Positions 53,619-62,944 of a DNA stretch of 64,000 bases are shown here, one piece after another (within the stretch, counting starts at the first letter, position 1; each line of letters starts with the position of its first letter). Source of the DNA: Posidoniimonas corsicana (GTDB lineage: Bacteria > Planctomycetota > Planctomycetia > Pirellulales > Lacipirellulaceae); contig NZ_SIHJ01000001.1 in the NCBI RefSeq assembly GCF_007859765.1, positions 3,203,156 through 3,267,155 on the forward strand. Reading direction: 5' to 3'. The notes under the pieces are model-generated. The model searched no databases. It was given only the letters and a program-made list of their open reading frames with translations, and was not told the origin of the DNA. The translations under genes and the position numbers were made by a program.

Positions 53619-55679
53619 TTAGATGTAAACCCGGCGGTTGTAGATGTACCATTCCGCCATCAGCACCACCAGCGCCAGCACAAGCAGCAGCTGCCACAGC
53701 TCCTTGCGGGCGGGGGCGCCGCCGGCCTGGGCCGCCACGTCGGTGTAGCCGATGCGGATGGCCTCGACGGGCGTTCCCACTTCCTGCTGCGTGGCGCGGA
53801 GCCGGATGTCGCTCTCTTGTCGGTCGAATAGGTTGATGGCGAACCGCTTGCTCACCTGGCCTCGCTCGAGCACCTCGTAAACGCCGGGCTCGGCGGTGTC
53901 TTGGTACTGGAAGGTTGTGTCGCCCGCCCGTGTCAGCGTCACTTCTTTCCCGGCGGGTGAACGGACCACCACTTCCGGGACGTTGGTCACGGGGCGGAAC
54001 TCCACCGGCTCGCCCGGCGCCGCCTGGCTGTTGGCGTCGCCCGAGAGTTGACCGACCAGGTAGCTGAGCGTGTTGAGCCAGAAGGTGGGGAAGCTGCGGC
54101 GGCGGAACCAGCGGGTGTTGCCCATCGCGACGCCGTCGCGGTTGACGATAATGGGGAACCCCAGCACGACGTCCTCGTAGCTCTCGCGGGGGGCGATCGC
54201 CATCAGCGAGCCGTCACCCGTGTCGATCAGGTCGACCCCGCCGGTAGGAGCGTCGACCAGTTGGCTTTCGAAGATCCACAGGTCGTTCAGCTCGACGTAG
54301 GCCAGGAGCGGGTGCGCGCGGTTCCAGTCGATCACCTGCGGGAACTGCTCGGTTCGAGGCTCGGCGGCGTCGGCGCCCTCCTCACTCTTACCGCCCCACG
54401 CGGCGGTGGGCGGCCGGCTGCCAATAAAGAACGTGTGCGACCGGGGCATCTCCTCCGGTGAGCAGACGTCGTAGATGATTAACGCGTACTCGCCTGACTG
54501 CGCCGACTTCTTGTACTCATCCGACGCCAGCTTGTCGGGGCTGACAATTGTCAGGTCCGCGATCCGGGCCGCCCGCTCGGTGCTGAGCGCGGCCTCCAGC
54601 ACCTTGTTCCCGTTGGTCACCAGCAGCACCTTCCCCTGCTCCTGGGGATTGAGACCGGCGTACGCCACGTTGTCGACCGCCAGCTTGTCGTCGGCGGACT
54701 GCAGCGACTCGAAATCGAGCGAGGCCGTCAGCTTGCCGGGCGGCGCGTCCGCCAGTGGGAAGCTGAGCGAGGCCGACTCGCCCGCCTTGGCGGCCGAACT
54801 CTTGGCGTCGAGGAACTGGCCATCCAGCTGCACCTCCACGACGAACTCCTGGTCGGCCTCGGTGAAGTTAGTCACCTGCACAAACGCCTCGCGCTCTTCC
54901 GGCCGCACCTCATTGCGGCGGGTGCTGAACGCGGTGATGGCGAGGTTGGCCGCTTCGGTCGAACCGACCGGCACGTACACCGGGTCGAGCCCGCCCAGGT
55001 CGAACCCCTCGACGTCTGCGAATCGGCCGTCGCTAAAAATGTAAAGGCTGGTGGTTACCGGCTCCACCACCTCGACCTCCACCCCAGAGTCTTGCATGGT
55101 CATCTGGCCGGGGTTGGCCAGGCCCCCGGCCAGCTTGAGCGCGTCGAGCAGGTCGGTCGGCTGGGCGGTGAGCTCGATCGACTCGAGCCGTTCGCGGAGC
55201 ACGCCCCGGCTGCCGGTGAACTGCTGGATCACCTGCGGGGCGTCGGCGAACGCGATGAGCATCGCGGACATGTCGGAGTCGAGCTGGTCGATCAGCCCGG
55301 CGACCTTCTGCTTCGCGTCGGCCAGGCGGTTCTCGGCGTCGTCAACGTCCTCGGCGCCCATGCTGGCGGAGTTGTCGATAACGAAGATCACCCGCTCGCC
55401 GTTCAGCTCGGTCCCCTCCCAGCCCGGACGCAGCAGCGCGAAGATCGCCAGCGCGACGATCAGCAGCTGCAGCAGCAGCAGCAGGCTCTGCCGCAGCCGC
55501 TGCCAGAAGCTGTTCACCCGCAGGTCTTCGATCGACTTGCGCCACAGGTAGGTGCTGGGCACCTCGACCGGCATCCGCTTGAGCTTCAGGAAGTACAGCG
55601 CAAGGATCGCGGGCGGGATCGCCAGCAGCAGCGACCACTGCACGGGAGAGAGCGTGTTGCGGAACAGGCCTTCGAGCAT
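53619..55679 (-). CDS. BatA/aerotolerance-type VWA membrane protein
   Basis: The 686-residue protein has an N-terminal BatA-like double-helix region (residues 13-31 and 65-84) followed by a VWA domain beginning with a MIDAS-type VIDNSASMG (D102, S104, S106). A further hydrophobic helix lies at the C-terminus (LWQLLLVLALVVLMAEWYIYN). Such proteins work in complexes with DUF58 and MoxR-type ATPases and are linked to stress resistance or protein maturation. It overlaps in operon position with the DUF58 gene, whose stop (55699) lies 20 bases upstream of its ATG. No MoxR gene is in the window. Confidence 0.86.
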   Translation of the reverse strand: MLEGLFRNTLSPVQWSLLLAIPPAILALYFLKLKRMPVEVPSTYLWRKSIEDLRVNSFWQRLRQSLLLLLQLLIVALAIFALLRPGWEGTELNGERVIFVIDNSASMGAEDVDDAENRLADAKQKVAGLIDQLDSDMSAMLIAFADAPQVIQQFTGSRGVLRERLESIELTAQPTDLLDALKLAGGLANPGQMTMQDSGVEVEVVEPVTTSLYIFSDGRFADVEGFDLGGLDPVYVPVGSTEAANLAITAFSTRRNEVRPEEREAFVQVTNFTEADQEFVVEVQLDGQFLDAKSSAAKAGESASLSFPLADAPPGKLTASLDFESLQSADDKLAVDNVAYAGLNPQEQGKVLLVTNGNKVLEAALSTERAARIADLTIVSPDKLASDEYKKSAQSGEYALIIYDVCSPEEMPRSHTFFIGSRPPTAAWGGKSEEGADAAEPRTEQFPQVIDWNRAHPLLAYVELNDLWIFESQLVDAPTGGVDLIDTGDGSLMAIAPRESYEDVVLGFPIIVNRDGVAMGNTRWFRRRSFPTFWLNTLSYLVGQLSGDANSQAAPGEPVEFRPVTNVPEVVVRSPAGKEVTLTRAGDTTFQYQDTAEPGVYEVLERGQVSKRFAINLFDRQESDIRLRATQQEVGTPVEAIRIGYTDVAAQAGGAPARKELWQLLLVLALVVLMAEWYIYNRRVYI

Positions 55680-55698
55680 CGGAGGTTCGATCGATCCT

Positions 55699-56589
55699 TT
55701 AGCGGACAAGCCCGCGGCGGCGCATGTAGTTGGTCATCAGCTCGTTGACCGGCATCTGGTTGTTCGCCAGCAGGTAGGCCATGCCGCGTTTAGCGCAGAA
55801 CTCCTGGGCGCCGGCGGTAAAGGCGGCCAGCGTCTGCTTGTACCTTGAGAGCAGCGGGGCGCTGACGGTGATCTCGGCGATGTCCTGGTCCTCGCAGTCA
55901 ACCAGCCGCAGGTCGCCCGCGACGTCCGGGTCGATCTCCTCCTGGCTGAGCACGTGGATCAGGTAGACGTCCACCCGCTGGGCCATCAGGTACTTCAACG
56001 CCGGCTCGTAGCCCTGCTTGTCCATCAGGTCGCTGATCAGCACCACCACCCCCTTGCCGGCGTTGCGGAGGCAGAACCGCTTCACGCCCTCGACCAGCGA
56101 GCCCTCCTGGTTTGGCTCGATCGCGGAGAGCTGGTCCAGCATCCGCCACACACTCTTGCGGCCGCGGAGCACGGGCGAGCGTTCGCGGAGGCCCTGGCCG
56201 AGGGTCTCGATCACGACCCGGTCGCTCTTCACCAGGCCGACGAACCCGAGCGCCGCCGCCAGCCGCTTGGCGTACTCCAGCTTGGTGGGGTCGCCGAACG
56301 CCATCGACGGCGACGCATCGATCAGGGTGTAGAAGTGCAGGTCCTCTTCTTCCAGGAAGAGCTTGAGGATCAGCTTGTCGAGCCTCGCGTAGAGGTTCCA
56401 GTCCAGACGCCGCAGGTCGTCGCCCGGGGTGTAGTTGCGGTAGTCTGCAAACTCGACCGACTCGCCCTTCCGCTTGCTCCGGCGTTCGCCCTTCATCCGG
56501 CCGCGGAACACTTTGCGGGTGACTAGCTCAAGCCGCTCGAGCTGGCTCATCAGGTCGGGCGGGAGCAGCTCGGGTGGGGAGATCGGCAT
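55699..56589 (-). CDS. DUF58 domain protein
   Basis: The 296-residue protein has the DUF58 signature ADYRNYTPGDDLRRLDWNLYARLDKLILK (about residues 48-76) followed by a VWA-like fold, LIDASPSMAFGD. DUF58 proteins are usually encoded with MoxR ATPases and VWA membrane proteins. Here it precedes the VWA protein in the same direction, so they probably form one transcript. The ATG at 56589 (MPISPPELLPP) is chosen over a longer basic extension. The MoxR partner is not seen nearby. Confidence 0.9.
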   Translation of the reverse strand: MPISPPELLPPDLMSQLERLELVTRKVFRGRMKGERRSKRKGESVEFADYRNYTPGDDLRRLDWNLYARLDKLILKLFLEEEDLHFYTLIDASPSMAFGDPTKLEYAKRLAAALGFVGLVKSDRVVIETLGQGLRERSPVLRGRKSVWRMLDQLSAIEPNQEGSLVEGVKRFCLRNAGKGVVVLISDLMDKQGYEPALKYLMAQRVDVYLIHVLSQEEIDPDVAGDLRLVDCEDQDIAEITVSAPLLSRYKQTLAAFTAGAQEFCAKRGMAYLLANNQMPVNELMTNYMRRRGLVR

Positions 56590-56939
56590 CGGCGGCGGGT
56601 CGGTCGTGCGGGCGCGTTGCTGGCTTCGGTTTCGCGTATCGGATTCTACCCGATCATCGCCTGGCGTGCGCAAATCACGCCGCCTGCCTGCGGTTTGGTT
56701 GACGGAAGGCCACAGACGCTAGCGCTGGCCGACGGCAAACCCGGCCCAAACCTAAGAATCATGAGAATCCGGAAACGAACTACCTGCAACCGGCGTCATA
56801 TGCCTTGCGGGATTCAGGCGGAAGTGCGCAATATAGAAGAGGAACAGGGAAGCAGCGTCCTCGGCCCGCCCCGACGGGTCTTGAGCCACAGGGGCGGCGT
56901 GGACCAAACGCTTGCGATACTCCCGGAGACCACCGCGAT
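56590..56939. promoter_or_regulatory. Divergent region between the DUF58 operon and the VWA-PP2C-kinase triad
   Basis: No gene is visible in these 350 bases, which should contain both divergent promoters. No convincing -35/-10 pair was found. A GGAG lies about 12 bases before the VWA start at 56940, rather far for a ribosome binding site. Confidence 0.4.
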
Positions 56940-57623
56940 ATGGACCAGCTCCGTGCTGACAGCGTCTTTAGCAACGTCGAGTTTGCTGAAAACCCCGAGC
57001 CCCGCGTCCCGTGCGTGCTGCTGCTGGACACCTCGACCAGCATGCACGGCCCGAAGCTGGACGAGCTGAACAAGGGGCTGCAGATTTACCGCCAGGCCCT
57101 GCTAACCGACCCGCTCGCCTCGAAGCGGGTGGAGGTCGCGGTGGTAACTTTTGGGGGACGCGTGAACCGCGTGGTGGACTTTGTCACCGCCGAGCAGTTC
57201 GAACCCCCGACGCTCAACGCGATCGGCGGCACGCCGCTGGGCGAGGCCGTGTCGACCTCGCTGGACATGATCGAGCAACGCAAGGACGCCTACCGCGAGA
57301 ACGGCGTCGCGTACTACCGGCCCTGGGCGTTCCTGATCACCGATGGCGAGCCCAACGACCACTGGAAACCGGTCATCAGCCGGATTGAGTCGGGCGAGAA
57401 GGCCAAGGCGTTCAGCTTCTTCTGCGTTGGGGTCGAGGGCGCCAACATGGAGATCCTGGGCGAGCTGAGCGTGCGTAAGCCGCTGTGGCTGCAGGGCTTA
57501 AAGTTCGCCGAGCTGTTCACTTGGTTGTCCAACTCCCAGCAGTCGGTGTCCCGTTCTTCGCCCGGCGAAGAGGTCCCCCTCGAAGACCCGACCTCCGGCC
57601 CCACCGGCTGGGCGGCCGTCTAG
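56940..57623 (+). CDS. YegL/TerY-like VWA domain protein
   Basis: The 227-residue protein is essentially a single VWA domain with complete MIDAS: LLLDTSTSM (D30, S32, S34), the Thr in GGTPLGEAVS and the Asp in LITDGEPND. The family is TerY/YegL-like. In E. coli, yegL-yegK-yegI encode VWA, PP2C-like and kinase proteins, and the same trio follows here. The likely role is a metal-dependent adaptor in a phosphorylation signalling module. The stop is 22 bases before the phosphatase ATG at 57646. The ATG at 56940 removes a non-protein-like extension of 45 residues. Confidence 0.88.
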   Translation: MDQLRADSVFSNVEFAENPEPRVPCVLLLDTSTSMHGPKLDELNKGLQIYRQALLTDPLASKRVEVAVVTFGGRVNRVVDFVTAEQFEPPTLNAIGGTPLGEAVSTSLDMIEQRKDAYRENGVAYYRPWAFLITDGEPNDHWKPVISRIESGEKAKAFSFFCVGVEGANMEILGELSVRKPLWLQGLKFAELFTWLSNSQQSVSRSSPGEEVPLEDPTSGPTGWAAV

Positions 57624-57645
57624 CTTGAACGTCAGGACGACCGAC

Positions 57646-58404
57646 ATGTGGCGGCACATCGCCGGCAGCGTCAGGGGAGCTTCGCACGAACGGGGCGGCG
57701 AACCCTGCCAGGACACGCACATCGCGTGCGTCATCGATTCCGCTTGGGGGCCCGGCATGGTCGCCTGTGTGGCCGACGGCGCCGGCAGCGCGAGCGACAG
57801 CCAGCACGGGTCGCAGATCGCCTGCGAGGCGATCGCCGCCAAGGCCCGCCAGCACTATGAACGCGTGGGGGGCTTCCAGATCGTTTCGCGGGACGACGCC
57901 ATCGTCTGGTGCGACCACGCCCGGTCGGAGATCAACCGCCGCGCCGAAGCCGACGGCAAGCAGCCCCGCGACTACGCGTGCACATTGAGCGCGGCCCTGC
58001 TGTCCGAGCGGGGTTCGGCGTTCCTGCAGATCGGCGACGGCGCCATCGTGGCCCGCCGCGGCGGCGTCTACGGGGTCGTGTTCTGGCCCCAGTCGGGCGA
58101 GTACGCCAACAGCACCAACTTCCTCACGCAGGAGGGCTACCAAGACCAACTCGAGTTCCTCGCCTCGCCCAGCACCTTCGGCGAGGTCGCATTGTTCACC
58201 GACGGCCTGGAACGGCTGGCGCTGAGTTTCGAGGGGCAGACCGCCCACGCCCCCTTCTTCGACCCACTGCTGCAGGCGGTCCGCCAGACAGACGACCTCG
58301 AGGGGCTCAACCAGGGGCTGCACGGCTTCCTGACCTCCGAGGTCGTTCAGAACAGGTCCGACGATGACAAGACCCTCGTCCTCGCTGCTAAGAATCCCGG
58401 TTAA
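57646..58404 (+). CDS. YegK-like PP2C-family protein phosphatase
   Basis: The 252-residue protein has PP2C metal motifs: VADGAGSAS (Asp and the GxG-like turn), LQIGDGAIV and SDDDKTLVL near the C-terminus. Its size is close to the catalytic core only. It should remove phosphate from Ser/Thr, most likely from targets of the kinase encoded next. The ATG at 57646 has AGGAC eight bases upstream; a TTG form starting at 57625 is possible. Its 3' end overlaps the kinase start by 41 bases, strongly suggesting co-translation. Confidence 0.88.
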   Translation: MWRHIAGSVRGASHERGGEPCQDTHIACVIDSAWGPGMVACVADGAGSASDSQHGSQIACEAIAAKARQHYERVGGFQIVSRDDAIVWCDHARSEINRRAEADGKQPRDYACTLSAALLSERGSAFLQIGDGAIVARRGGVYGVVFWPQSGEYANSTNFLTQEGYQDQLEFLASPSTFGEVALFTDGLERLALSFEGQTAHAPFFDPLLQAVRQTDDLEGLNQGLHGFLTSEVVQNRSDDDKTLVLAAKNPG

Positions 58405-60469
58405 GAAGCCGCTGGTCACCGACGCCCAGGGCAACGTGGTGCCGCTCGGCGAGCCGATCGGCGTCGGCGGCGAGGGCCGCGTGTTCGAGGTGGTCAAGGA
58501 ACCGGACTGCGCGGCCAAGATCTACCACCGGACGCCGCTCGCCGGTCAACAGCTCAACAAGCTGCAGGCGATGCTGACCATCGGCGCCAAGGAGCTGGCG
58601 CCGATCGCCGCCTGGCCGCAGAAGCTGCTGCTGGACGCGCAGAACGACAAGCCGTGCGGCATCGTGATGACCCGCGTCAACGACGCGCTCGAGCTGCACG
58701 AGCTGTACGGCGCCTCGACCCGCGCGCGGCACTTCCCCCACGCCTACTGGCACCACCTGGTGCTGGCCGCGCGCAATGCGGCCGCGGCGTTCGAGGCGTT
58801 GCACTCGCGCGGCGTCGTGATCGGCGACGTGAACCAGGGCAACCTGCTGGTCGACCAGGAGATGTGCGTCCGGTTCATCGACTGCGACTCGTTCCAGATT
58901 CGCTACGGCAAGCGGGTGCTGCCGTGCCTGGTCGGCACGCCGCACTTCACCCCGCCCGAGCTGCAGTCGGTCCGGCTGTCGGAGGTCGTCCGCACGCCGC
59001 AGCACGACGCGTTCGGGCTGGCGCTGTTGATATTCCACCTGCTGTTCGTCGGTCGTCACCCCTTCGCCGGCCGCTACCGCGGCGAGGGGGAAATGCACAT
59101 CGAGCGGGCGATAAGCGAGCGGCGGTTCGCGTTCAGCAGCAGCCGTGACGCAACCCAGATGGACCCGCCGCCGGCGTCGCTCAGCCTGTCGGACCTGCCG
59201 AAGCAGATCGCGGACATGTTCGAGGCCGCCCTCCGCTGCGACCCGGCCAAGGGGCAGGAGCGTCCCATGCCGCGGCAGTGGGTGATGGCGCTAGAGAATC
59301 TGCTGAAGAACCGCCGGGAGTGCGACATCGACTCGTCGCACGTCTACTACAACGGCTCGAAGGAGTGCCCGTGGTGCCGGATCGAAGCCAACGGCGGGCC
59401 TGCTTTCTTCGTCAACTCGGCGCTCGTGGGCGGGTCGATGCAGTCCCGGCTCGAGGCCTACGACCGCTGCGTCGCGAAGGTTGAGGAGATATACTTCCCG
59501 GACCTCGCCCGCAAGACGGTCAAGGTCCCGGCGATGCCGATCATCAAGAAGGCCGAGGAGCGGTTCCCGATGCGGGCCGCCGACTGGATCGCGCTGGGCG
59601 CCCCGCTTGGCGCGGCCCTGGCCTTGGGCGGCGCCTTCTTCTGGCCGGTGCTGGCGGGCGGCTGGGCGGTCTCGCTAGCGACCTCCGCCCTGCTCTGGCT
59701 GCACGCCGGCGCCAAGGGCCGGCGCACCACCAGCCTCGAGTACGCCGAGCGGGTCGACGAACTGACCGACAAGCTCGAGACCGCCGGCGCCAACGTCATG
59801 GCGCGGCACCGCCAACGCGAGGCCGAGTTTGACACCTACGCGGCGGTGGTCAACACTGGCCGGGAGCGCTACGCAACCGACGCCGAGGACCTGGAGACCA
59901 TCGTCAAGCAGCTGCGCGTCGAACAGCGGGAAGACTACCTCCGTGGTCTGGAGATCCGCCAGTACCGCCGCAAGATTCCCGGCCTGCAGCGGGGTCACGT
60001 CGCGGTGCTGCAGTCGTACGGCGTCGAGACCGCCGCCGACTGCGAATCGCACCTGCTGGCCGGCATCCCCAGCATCCCACCGGAGATCACCATCGAGCTG
60101 ATGCAGTGGCGTGAGGCGAGGCTCGAGCAGTTCGCCTTCCAGCCCGAGGCCGGCGTCACCGAGCGGGAGGTCGAGATCGACCGCCAGGAGGCCGCCGCCC
60201 GCTTCAAGATCTCCCAGGCCCGCAAGGTGCTGAACGGCGCCACGAGGCTAAGATCCATGGCTCACCAGGGCCGCAAAGCGTTGCAGCAGGATCTGGAGGT
60301 CTTCGAACAGCTGGCCGCCCGGTTCCGCGCCCTGGCCCGGGAGTACCAGGACTTCCAGGCGACCCGCAGCACGGTCGAGCGGAAGGTCAATCAGAGCGCG
60401 ACGACCATCGCCGTGGCGGCGGTCGCGGCCCCGCTGGTCGGCACGCTGCTGTGGCTGGTGCTGGGCTGA
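58364..60469 (+). CDS. YegI-like protein kinase with Cys motif, HhH and membrane helices
   Basis: The 701-residue protein has an atypical kinase domain (about residues 25-315): Gly loop IGVGGEGRVFEV, Lys52 in AAKIYH, catalytic loop GDVNQGN (154-160) instead of HRDxxxxN, and DCD (173-175) in the DFG position. A Cys/His group (C320, H326, C335, C338 in ECPWC) follows and may bind zinc. Two membrane helices lie at about 406-447, a coiled segment at 455-530, a helix-hairpin-helix-like IPGLQRGHVAVLQSYG region at 538-585, and a last helix at 680-699. This resembles E. coli YegI. Together with the preceding VWA and PP2C proteins it forms a signalling triad at the membrane; the signal is unknown. Confidence 0.87.
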   Translation: MTRPSSSLLRIPVKKPLVTDAQGNVVPLGEPIGVGGEGRVFEVVKEPDCAAKIYHRTPLAGQQLNKLQAMLTIGAKELAPIAAWPQKLLLDAQNDKPCGIVMTRVNDALELHELYGASTRARHFPHAYWHHLVLAARNAAAAFEALHSRGVVIGDVNQGNLLVDQEMCVRFIDCDSFQIRYGKRVLPCLVGTPHFTPPELQSVRLSEVVRTPQHDAFGLALLIFHLLFVGRHPFAGRYRGEGEMHIERAISERRFAFSSSRDATQMDPPPASLSLSDLPKQIADMFEAALRCDPAKGQERPMPRQWVMALENLLKNRRECDIDSSHVYYNGSKECPWCRIEANGGPAFFVNSALVGGSMQSRLEAYDRCVAKVEEIYFPDLARKTVKVPAMPIIKKAEERFPMRAADWIALGAPLGAALALGGAFFWPVLAGGWAVSLATSALLWLHAGAKGRRTTSLEYAERVDELTDKLETAGANVMARHRQREAEFDTYAAVVNTGRERYATDAEDLETIVKQLRVEQREDYLRGLEIRQYRRKIPGLQRGHVAVLQSYGVETAADCESHLLAGIPSIPPEITIELMQWREARLEQFAFQPEAGVTEREVEIDRQEAAARFKISQARKVLNGATRLRSMAHQGRKALQQDLEVFEQLAARFRALAREYQDFQATRSTVERKVNQSATTIAVAAVAAPLVGTLLWLVLG

Positions 60470-60498: not shown

Positions 60499-62787
60499 TT
60501 AGTCAAGTTTCGCCAGTCGTGCGACGTCGGCGGCCGCCTGAGTCGGGTCGAGGGCCGTGTTGGCGATCCCCGACACAACCTTAGTGATGTTGTGGTCGAC
60601 CTCGCCGGCCCGCCCCCACACCTCGCCCGACGCGGACGTGATATAGGTCGAGAACGTGCGGTGGCCAGTTCCCGGGCGTTCACCGATCACGTGCAGGATT
60701 GTGCGGCGTCCCTCAAGGCCCGCGAAGAGCGTTTCGCCGATGCTATAGCCGGCCCGGACACGACCCGAGTTCACGATCAGGTGCTCGGAGGCGACGCGTC
60801 GGTCCCGCTCGGCAAGCGCCGCCCGCAGCGCAGTAAGAAAGGTAGTCAGCTGCCCGGGCTCCATGATCGCCAGCGCATTGAGCCCGTCGGAGATCACAAT
60901 CTGAAGATCCACCTCGCCCGCCCGGTGCTCGCGGAGCGACCGCACCGTGCTTTGGGACCGCTCGCTGAGTTGCTCCCCCGTGACGGGATGGAGGATGTAG
61001 TCGGTCCGGTCGACCGAGTTGGTCTCCAGCACCAGGGCGTCGGGGGCTTCGGCGACAAACCGATCGTCTAGCTCGGCCCAGATGCCCAGCTTGGCGTCGT
61101 CGTAGATGCGGCGGACCCCCTCGCGCAGTTTTTGCGGTGGGTCTCCGTGCCGGTCGCCGTGGCCCTCGGCGATAAACACCCCGCGGCTACGCACCTCCGC
61201 CAGCTTCCGGCGCCCCTCCGCAAACACCACGTCGTCCGCTCGCGGGTCCCCCTTGCGACGGCGGTATTGCAGGTACACCCAGAGCGGGTCGCCAAACCGA
61301 CCGCCTGGCCGCCCGTCTGACTCGATGACCCCAAGTTGTTGGAAGAACGCCCACATCGCGTCGTTGACGCGGTAGCCGAACTTCTCACGCAGCCGCACGT
61401 GGTCGTGGTAGCCGGTGGTCAGGTACCCGAGCATCGGGTCGATCTTGGTCGGCAGCGCCATCAGGTACGCCGGGTTGGCGGGCAGTATCTGGTCCAGGCA
61501 CCAGTCGAGGTCCTCCAGCGACACGTCCATGTGCAGGGTCGAGCACACGTCCAGGCCGATGCACAGCCCGTGCAGCTTGCCCATGACAATGTCCTCCAGG
61601 CAGCAGCGGACGAGCTGCTCGCGGGTGCGGAACACCTCGGGGCCGATGAACCCGGCGACGTCGTTCAGGTGCACCCACGCCGCGGGTTCGTTGCCCGAGG
61701 CGGCTCGCGCCGCGGAGACCTGGCTGCTGAGGGTGCGTGCGAAGCCGTACTTGCGGGCCTCGTGCAGCACCATGTCGAAGCCGTGGCTGTGCCCGTTGGT
61801 GAAGTCGGCGCCCTGGCCGGTCTCGAAGTACAACCCGTAGCGGCCGCTGCGGGACGAGGCGTGCCGCTCCATCTTCGCGACGCTGATGTCGAAGGTGGCG
61901 TTCGCCGCGTCGCAGCCGGCGATGCTCTGGAACCACAGCGCGGTGCTGCCCGGGTCGGTCCGCTCGACCTCCGCCTGCACGTCGATGTGCGACAGCACGC
62001 AGTGTGGCATGTGCTGCTCAACACCAAACGTTTGGAGCAGGTCCTGCAGCGTCCGCTCGACCGCCGCGACCGAGGCCGCTTCGCTGGACACCGGGTTCGT
62101 GCCCAGCAGCATGTCCCCAACCCCGTACGACCAGGCGTCGAACACCTGCCACGCGATGTCGTCTACGTTGTCGGTAGGCGAGTTCGGCTGCACCCGCGCG
62201 CCGAGGTAGCCCTTCGCGCCGAGCTGGCTGCCCGGAAGCGGGTTGAAGACCTTGCGTCCAACCTGGATCAGCTCGTCGTTGGTCATCAGCTTCACGACGC
62301 AGCCGATGACATCGCTCGACAACGCGGGGGCCGCCTCTTTGATGCTCGCCTCGTCGGCGACCAACAGAAACCGCTTGAGTGTTCCCAGCGTTGGCTGCCC
62401 TGGAAGCAGCTGGCCCAGCCCAGGCCGATCCAGCGAGATGAATCGGTACAGTTCGTCGGTGTGGATCGGGTTGGCGTCGAGGGCCGACAGCCGCGTGGCT
62501 CCGAGCAGGCGCCGGGCGTGGATCCGGGACCGGTTGTCCGACGCCGCGACGCCGATCGCCTGGTCGCCCTCCTTGAACTCGTTCGCGGCGCCCAGGATCT
62601 GGGCGTACATCCGCGGGTCGTGCCCGCCGTGGCGTCGGTGGATGAACGAGAAGACATCCTCCCCCTGCCTGGGCGCAGGGATCTCGAGCGGGCCTTCGTT
62701 GGAGAGGCAAGCGGGCACGGCGGCGCCGTAAGCGACGGCGGCAGAACCGCCGGCAACCTGCCGCAGGAACGAACGTCGCGATGGCAT
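60499..62787 (-). CDS. eutBC: Tat-exported EutB-EutC ethanolamine ammonia-lyase fusion
   Basis: The 762-residue product carries both subunits of adenosylcobalamin-dependent ethanolamine ammonia-lyase. The EutB part is about residues 42-510, with EGDQAIGVAA (73-82), GARVQPNSP, GTNPV, FETGQG and GLDVC; R198, Q200, N231, E322 and D413 correspond to substrate-binding residues of E. coli EutB. The EutC part is about 515-762, with ISDGLNALAI, NSGRVRAGYSIGE and HVIGERPGTGH. The N-terminus MPSRRSFLRQVAGG is a clear twin-arginine signal, and AVPACLS could be a weak lipobox. The start at 62787 was chosen for that signal. No other eut genes are present. The usual enzyme is cytoplasmic, so localisation is the main oddity. 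Confidence 0.9.
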   Translation of the reverse strand: MPSRRSFLRQVAGGSAAVAYGAAVPACLSNEGPLEIPAPRQGEDVFSFIHRRHGGHDPRMYAQILGAANEFKEGDQAIGVAASDNRSRIHARRLLGATRLSALDANPIHTDELYRFISLDRPGLGQLLPGQPTLGTLKRFLLVADEASIKEAAPALSSDVIGCVVKLMTNDELIQVGRKVFNPLPGSQLGAKGYLGARVQPNSPTDNVDDIAWQVFDAWSYGVGDMLLGTNPVSSEAASVAAVERTLQDLLQTFGVEQHMPHCVLSHIDVQAEVERTDPGSTALWFQSIAGCDAANATFDISVAKMERHASSRSGRYGLYFETGQGADFTNGHSHGFDMVLHEARKYGFARTLSSQVSAARAASGNEPAAWVHLNDVAGFIGPEVFRTREQLVRCCLEDIVMGKLHGLCIGLDVCSTLHMDVSLEDLDWCLDQILPANPAYLMALPTKIDPMLGYLTTGYHDHVRLREKFGYRVNDAMWAFFQQLGVIESDGRPGGRFGDPLWVYLQYRRRKGDPRADDVVFAEGRRKLAEVRSRGVFIAEGHGDRHGDPPQKLREGVRRIYDDAKLGIWAELDDRFVAEAPDALVLETNSVDRTDYILHPVTGEQLSERSQSTVRSLREHRAGEVDLQIVISDGLNALAIMEPGQLTTFLTALRAALAERDRRVASEHLIVNSGRVRAGYSIGETLFAGLEGRRTILHVIGERPGTGHRTFSTYITSASGEVWGRAGEVDHNITKVVSGIANTALDPTQAAADVARLAKLD

Positions 62788-62944
62788 CAGACCGGCTCCG
62801 GTGGCGCGCCGCGCGGCACGATGAACGCCTATGCCCGCCCAGGCTACCGCCGGCCGACGCACCGGTCAATGAACGCTGAGGGGGGAGCTGCCGTGCAGCG
62901 CACTCCGCTTGACCCCATCCGTGGAACCACCCACAAACACGAGC

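Follow-up and report, generated by a model that had tools for sequence, protein, structure and literature searches.

The closest described relatives of the protein investigated here are the EutBC ethanolamine ammonia-lyases (EAL) of known structure from E. coli (3ABO, 5YSR) and Listeria (2QEZ), with which it shares the fold and the residues of the substrate and cobalamin sites, while it differs from them by the fusion of both subunits, the presence of a twin-arginine (Tat) leader and the absence of a eut operon. A second point of reference is the EAL of Acinetobacter baumannii, which requires neither a metabolosome nor EutA and is located at the cell periphery (PMC9426561). Its association with the membrane and its function without microcompartment and EutA liken this enzyme to the fusion, from which it is distinguished by its separate EutB and EutC subunits, an AbEutC that lacks a predicted N-terminal signal and a cotranscribed aldehyde dehydrogenase, which the authors suggest to assist the lyase (PMC9426561). 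Finally, the corrinoid reductive dehalogenase RdhA is a cobamide enzyme that is exported via a twin-arginine signal (PMC3939436). It thus offers a precedent for the export predicted for the fusion, although RdhA, as Fe-S/cobamide respiratory reductase, belongs to an unrelated family, whereas the fusion would be an AdoCbl radical lyase.

The gene under study is located in the window, by which we refer to the entire analysed stretch of 64,000 nucleotides from Posidoniimonas corsicana (Table 1). Its frame (62787-60499, minus strand) is unbroken from ATG to TAA, and the encoded protein scores above the curated cut-offs of both Pfam domains, with E-values of 3.5e-130 for EutB (PF06751, 435 bits) and 4.1e-29 for EutC (PF05985, 102 bits), in line with the initial annotation, which had placed both EAL subunits in one chain. 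The protein also reaches a score of 565.5 with the model NF011649 (cut-off 554), whereas it stays below the cut-off of the EutC equivalog NF003971 (79.6 vs 230), which defines its EutC part as a divergent member. On sequence grounds, the window protein is a EutB-EutC fusion from the family of B12 radical enzymes that split ethanolamine, an activity that is predicted for it as well. The fused gene is solitary, with a convergent kinase-like gene downstream and, 157 bp upstream, a codirectional, unrelated gene without Pfam match.

Table 1. Location of the fused gene and its elements in the window.
Feature	Positions	Strand	Basis
Fused ethanolamine ammonia-lyase (EutB-EutC), 762 aa	60499..62787	-	Frame, Pfam, AlphaFold model, fold match to E. 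coli EAL
Twin-arginine leader, about residues 1-28, MPSRRSFLRQVAGGSAAVAYGAAVPACL	62704..62787	-	Motif statistics, residue conservation
EutB domain, residues 62-493	61309..62604	-	Pfam, E. coli residue correspondence
EutC domain, residues 562-760	60508..61104	-	Pfam, E. coli residue correspondence
GGAG Shine-Dalgarno-like sequence, 8 nt from ATG	62788..62799	-	

An AlphaFold model of the protein (pLDDT 90.6, pTM 0.89) superimposes on E. coli EutB (3abo_A, Z 42.4, rmsd 2.0, 432 residues) and, in its second part, on EutC (5ysr_D, Z 23.9, rmsd 2.7, 225 residues). Structure alignment with the EAL of known structure yields identities of 31-34% in EutB and about 22% in EutC. At the inspected positions of EutB, 15 of 17 residues are identical to E. 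coli. Among them, R160, Q162, N193, E287, F329, D362, M392 and L402 correspond to R198, Q200, N231, E322, F380, D413, M443 and L453 of the window protein and R206, V207 and E228 of EutC to R676, V677 and E703, all of which are invariant in 39 relatives. We take R160, Q162, N193, E287 and D362 of EutB to be the substrate contacts of EAL and R206, V207 and E228 of EutC to be residues of its cobalamin site. The retention of substrate residues claimed in the initial annotation is thus manifested in the invariance of R198, Q200, N231, E322, F380 and D413 among the 39 relatives. For Glu287 of EAL, PMC4413051 cites a role in the formation of the radical pair.

The conservation of these sites bears on the question of what the protein would do once exported. 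It might act as a non-catalytic corrinoid-binding protein, for example in the capture of cobamides. In favour of this, EutA was not found in the fusion genomes, and a reactivation factor is not expected to work beyond the cytoplasm. We consider such a function highly improbable since the catalytic residues of EutB show the same invariance as the cobalamin site, and mere binding would place no such demand on them. The exported enzyme might alternatively act on another amino alcohol or a related amine. This would be compatible with the deep divergence from ordinary EAL, with the fact that genes of the ethanolamine pathway are not consistently adjacent and with two replacements in EutB, where Thr replaces both E257 and S295 in all 39 relatives (E257T, S295T), an observation that also counts against our preferred reading. 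As all five of the presumed substrate contacts are kept, together with M392 and L402, a change in substrate appears rather unlikely to us, and we favour ethanolamine.

The N terminus of the window protein, MPSRRSFLRQVAGGSAAVAYGAAVPAC, contains the sequence SRRSFL at residues 3-8, an S/T-RR-x-F-L-K-like motif near the start, and residues 1-29 are the sole stretch of the AlphaFold model with a pLDDT below 50. The occurrence of such leaders was evaluated in 82 sequences of less than 85% identity, 81 of them with enough upstream sequence, which were taken from the best 80 of at least 562 relatives identified in a scan of genome contigs and from loci of Myxococcota and Bacteroidota. A Tat-like test, defined as RR-x-hydrophobic with a subsequent hydrophobic stretch free of charges, is passed by 71 of 81 non-redundant fusions (a frequency that is biased to close relatives of the query as the contig scan contributes its best 80 of at least 562), compared to a mean of 2.2 and a maximum of 7 in 300 rounds of shuffled upstream sequences and to none of 25 unfused EutB proteins. 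In an alignment of 39 relatives, R4 and R5 are 95% and F7 85% conserved, whereas other leader columns do not exceed 69%. Within the 71 leader-bearing sequences, each of both arginines is encoded by all six Arg codons and a phenylalanine is found two residues after the pair in 64 cases; the consensus is SRRxFL-like. With start codons assigned by rule as the nearest start upstream of RR, the position of the pair relative to the start is the same in most members. As judged from these patterns, the twin-arginine motif is under selection.

Several observations count against export by the Tat system. The Tat signal model TIGR01409, which spans 29 positions, assigns the window protein 14.8 bits, narrowly below its cut-off of 16.7, and matches only four of the 39 relatives at E<=0.1. 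Three Bacteroidota members (L099, L105, L155) contain RK instead of RR, and a minority of the fusions is devoid of a leader, although one of those failing the automatic test (L061) still carries MRRRNFIKSTAFGTALAADWKCAG. Due to its score below the cut-off, we describe the window protein as Tat-like in its mode of working and refrain from listing it among curated Tat substrates. The clear twin-arginine signal noted in the initial annotation is therefore upheld by the statistics and conservation of the RR motif and by its recurrence with the fusion across several phyla, as found in the survey of homologues that the annotation had suggested, with the score of TIGR01409 as a qualification. The low score of this model would also be expected for a chance twin arginine or a wrongly assigned start codon in an ordinary cytoplasmic enzyme. 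We reject this explanation and regard its probability as negligible in view of the 71 leaders where 2.2 were expected, the diversity of codons, the failure of all 25 unfused controls and the constant position of the pair in most members.

A different question concerns the fate of the leader. Those of a Myxococcus protein, RFLLHRRAVLTAMVGGAAVSVLGC, and of a Bacteroidia metagenome-assembled genome (MAG), NRRIFLYQAGILGINLSLLNGC, resemble Tat lipoprotein signals, and several myxobacterial and Bacteroidota leaders terminate in a lipobox cysteine. The window leader contains the sequence VPAC (Cys27), a possible atypical lipobox. Of the 71 leaders, only 32 contain a clear A/V-x-A site where one would be expected, which would be in accordance with a mere N-terminal membrane anchor that leaves the enzyme on the cytoplasmic face, akin to the membrane-associated EAL of Acinetobacter, where A. 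baumannii EutBC resides at the membrane without a signal (PMC9426561). An anchor would, however, need neither two arginines that are 95% conserved despite free codon use nor the trailing phenylalanine, and the occurrence of lipobox cysteines in several lineages indicates processing beyond the membrane. We thus view a cytoplasmic orientation as unlikely and translocation by the Tat system as the better account of the leader.

EutBC fusions related to the window protein are found in Planctomycetota, Myxococcota, Bacteroidota and Acidobacteriota, with several of the hosts being MAGs, whose labels may be wrong. Full-length fusions are contained in 16 of 392 genomes of the planctomycete phylum. In a quick tree (LG+G4), the fusions form one clade, separated from unfused EutB by a long branch. 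Leaderless fusions appear at a few places of this tree, including a strongly supported Myxococcus/Archangium group, of which several genomes also hold a leader-bearing copy. Two leaderless fusions (L016, L017) belong to other classes of the same phylum. One Myxococcus genome encodes a leaderless fusion (L110, 8001-10157) and a Tat-lipoprotein fusion (L058, 8001-10298), and the same pairing recurs in Archangium. A further myxobacterial protein (L153) groups with leader-bearing copies while its N terminus contains no recognisable Tat leader, possibly as a consequence of a recent loss or a sequencing error. In open-access full texts, we found no papers on a fused Tat-led EAL family; measured by this literature, the fused Tat-led clade is new, whereas the catalytic family is known.

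The genome of P. corsicana (95% complete) encodes TatC (E 1.8e-61) and a PduO-type adenosyltransferase. EutA and BMC shell proteins were not detected in the whole assembly, which extends the initial observation that no microcompartment or reactivase genes are nearby, and EutH was equally undetected in this genome. Matches resembling EutA in myxobacteria and Echinicola were rejected as they cover 45-65 of the 475 model positions. EutA also escaped detection in six tested planctomycete genomes with unfused EutB, and its absence is thus no mark of the fusion. Since the A. baumannii enzyme works without shell or EutA (PMC9426561), the lack of both is by itself not new either, and of the new arrangement for ethanolamine use that the initial annotation had envisaged, it is the conserved export signal that stands as novel.

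A contrast to the fusion is provided by short loci in four planctomycetes (G121, G333, G321, G373), which belong to the same phylum and harbour a member of the EutB family. These genomes contain no fused full-length match, their EutB has no Tat motif and an ethanolamine permease is adjacent, while EutA was not found in the two that were tested (G121, G333), as in the fusion genome. In general, the ethanolamine permease model TIGR00908, which is not specific for all kinds of ethanolamine importers, exceeds its cut-off in none of 22 fusion genomes compared to four of nine with unfused EutB (Fisher p 0.004, uncorrected for phylogeny), and in all four the permease adjoins eutB. Its absence agrees with a fusion that would not need import of ethanolamine into the cytoplasm. 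Beyond near relatives, no gene family is repeatedly encountered next to the fusion, and neither a conserved partner gene nor a chaperone for maturation or an aldehyde enzyme acting downstream was found adjoining it, which counts against our preferred reading. Pfam searches of 20 neighbours identified unrelated families with only single suggestive cases. In Echinicola, the fusion is preceded at a distance of about 100 bp by a codirectional gene for an iron-containing alcohol dehydrogenase (L105, 6628-7785, plus strand), a possible aldehyde sink, and at another locus by a glutamine-synthetase-like gene (L065, 6510-7523, plus strand), likewise in the same orientation.

In light of these properties, we consider it probable that the protein is a fused AdoCbl-dependent EAL that is loaded with its cofactor in the cytoplasm, exported via Tat and splits ethanolamine outside the cytoplasm. 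Actual export, prior loading, turnover of ethanolamine and the physiological purpose of this arrangement are our inferences. In the proposed mechanism, the single chain would fold and bind AdoCbl in the cytoplasm and Tat would carry the folded, cofactor-loaded chain over the inner membrane, with the fusion of EutB and EutC offering one covalent, correctly paired unit for transport. Its final location would be the periplasm or, in several myxobacterial and Bacteroidota members, that of a membrane-anchored lipoprotein. There, ethanolamine would be converted to acetaldehyde and ammonia, both of which may subsequently be taken up or diffuse. Action on the outside would make an importer unneeded and keep the production of acetaldehyde away from the cytosol. 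We know of no route for the reactivation of damaged cobalamin outside the cytoplasm, which counts against export, and to our knowledge no AdoCbl radical enzyme has been shown to work there. The broader proposition, that several phyla employ such an extracytoplasmic EAL as alternative to the microcompartment and without ethanolamine importer, appears evenly balanced to us. Confirmation would establish a third strategy for handling the toxic aldehyde from ethanolamine breakdown, beside microcompartments and free cytoplasmic enzymes, and raise the question of how durable an enzyme would be without reactivation. With hundreds of relatives, some of them from culturable myxobacteria and planctomycetes, the proposal is directly testable.

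The surroundings of the fused gene contain two further groups of genes. Downstream of it, at 56805-60469 of the plus strand, a vWA domain protein, a PP2C phosphatase and a kinase-like protein extended by a long C-terminal part are encoded consecutively, a trio that resembles TerY-type vWA/phosphatase/kinase triads. At 53619-56673 of the minus strand, a DUF58 protein adjoins a BatA/vWA membrane protein in a typical MoxR-associated pair.
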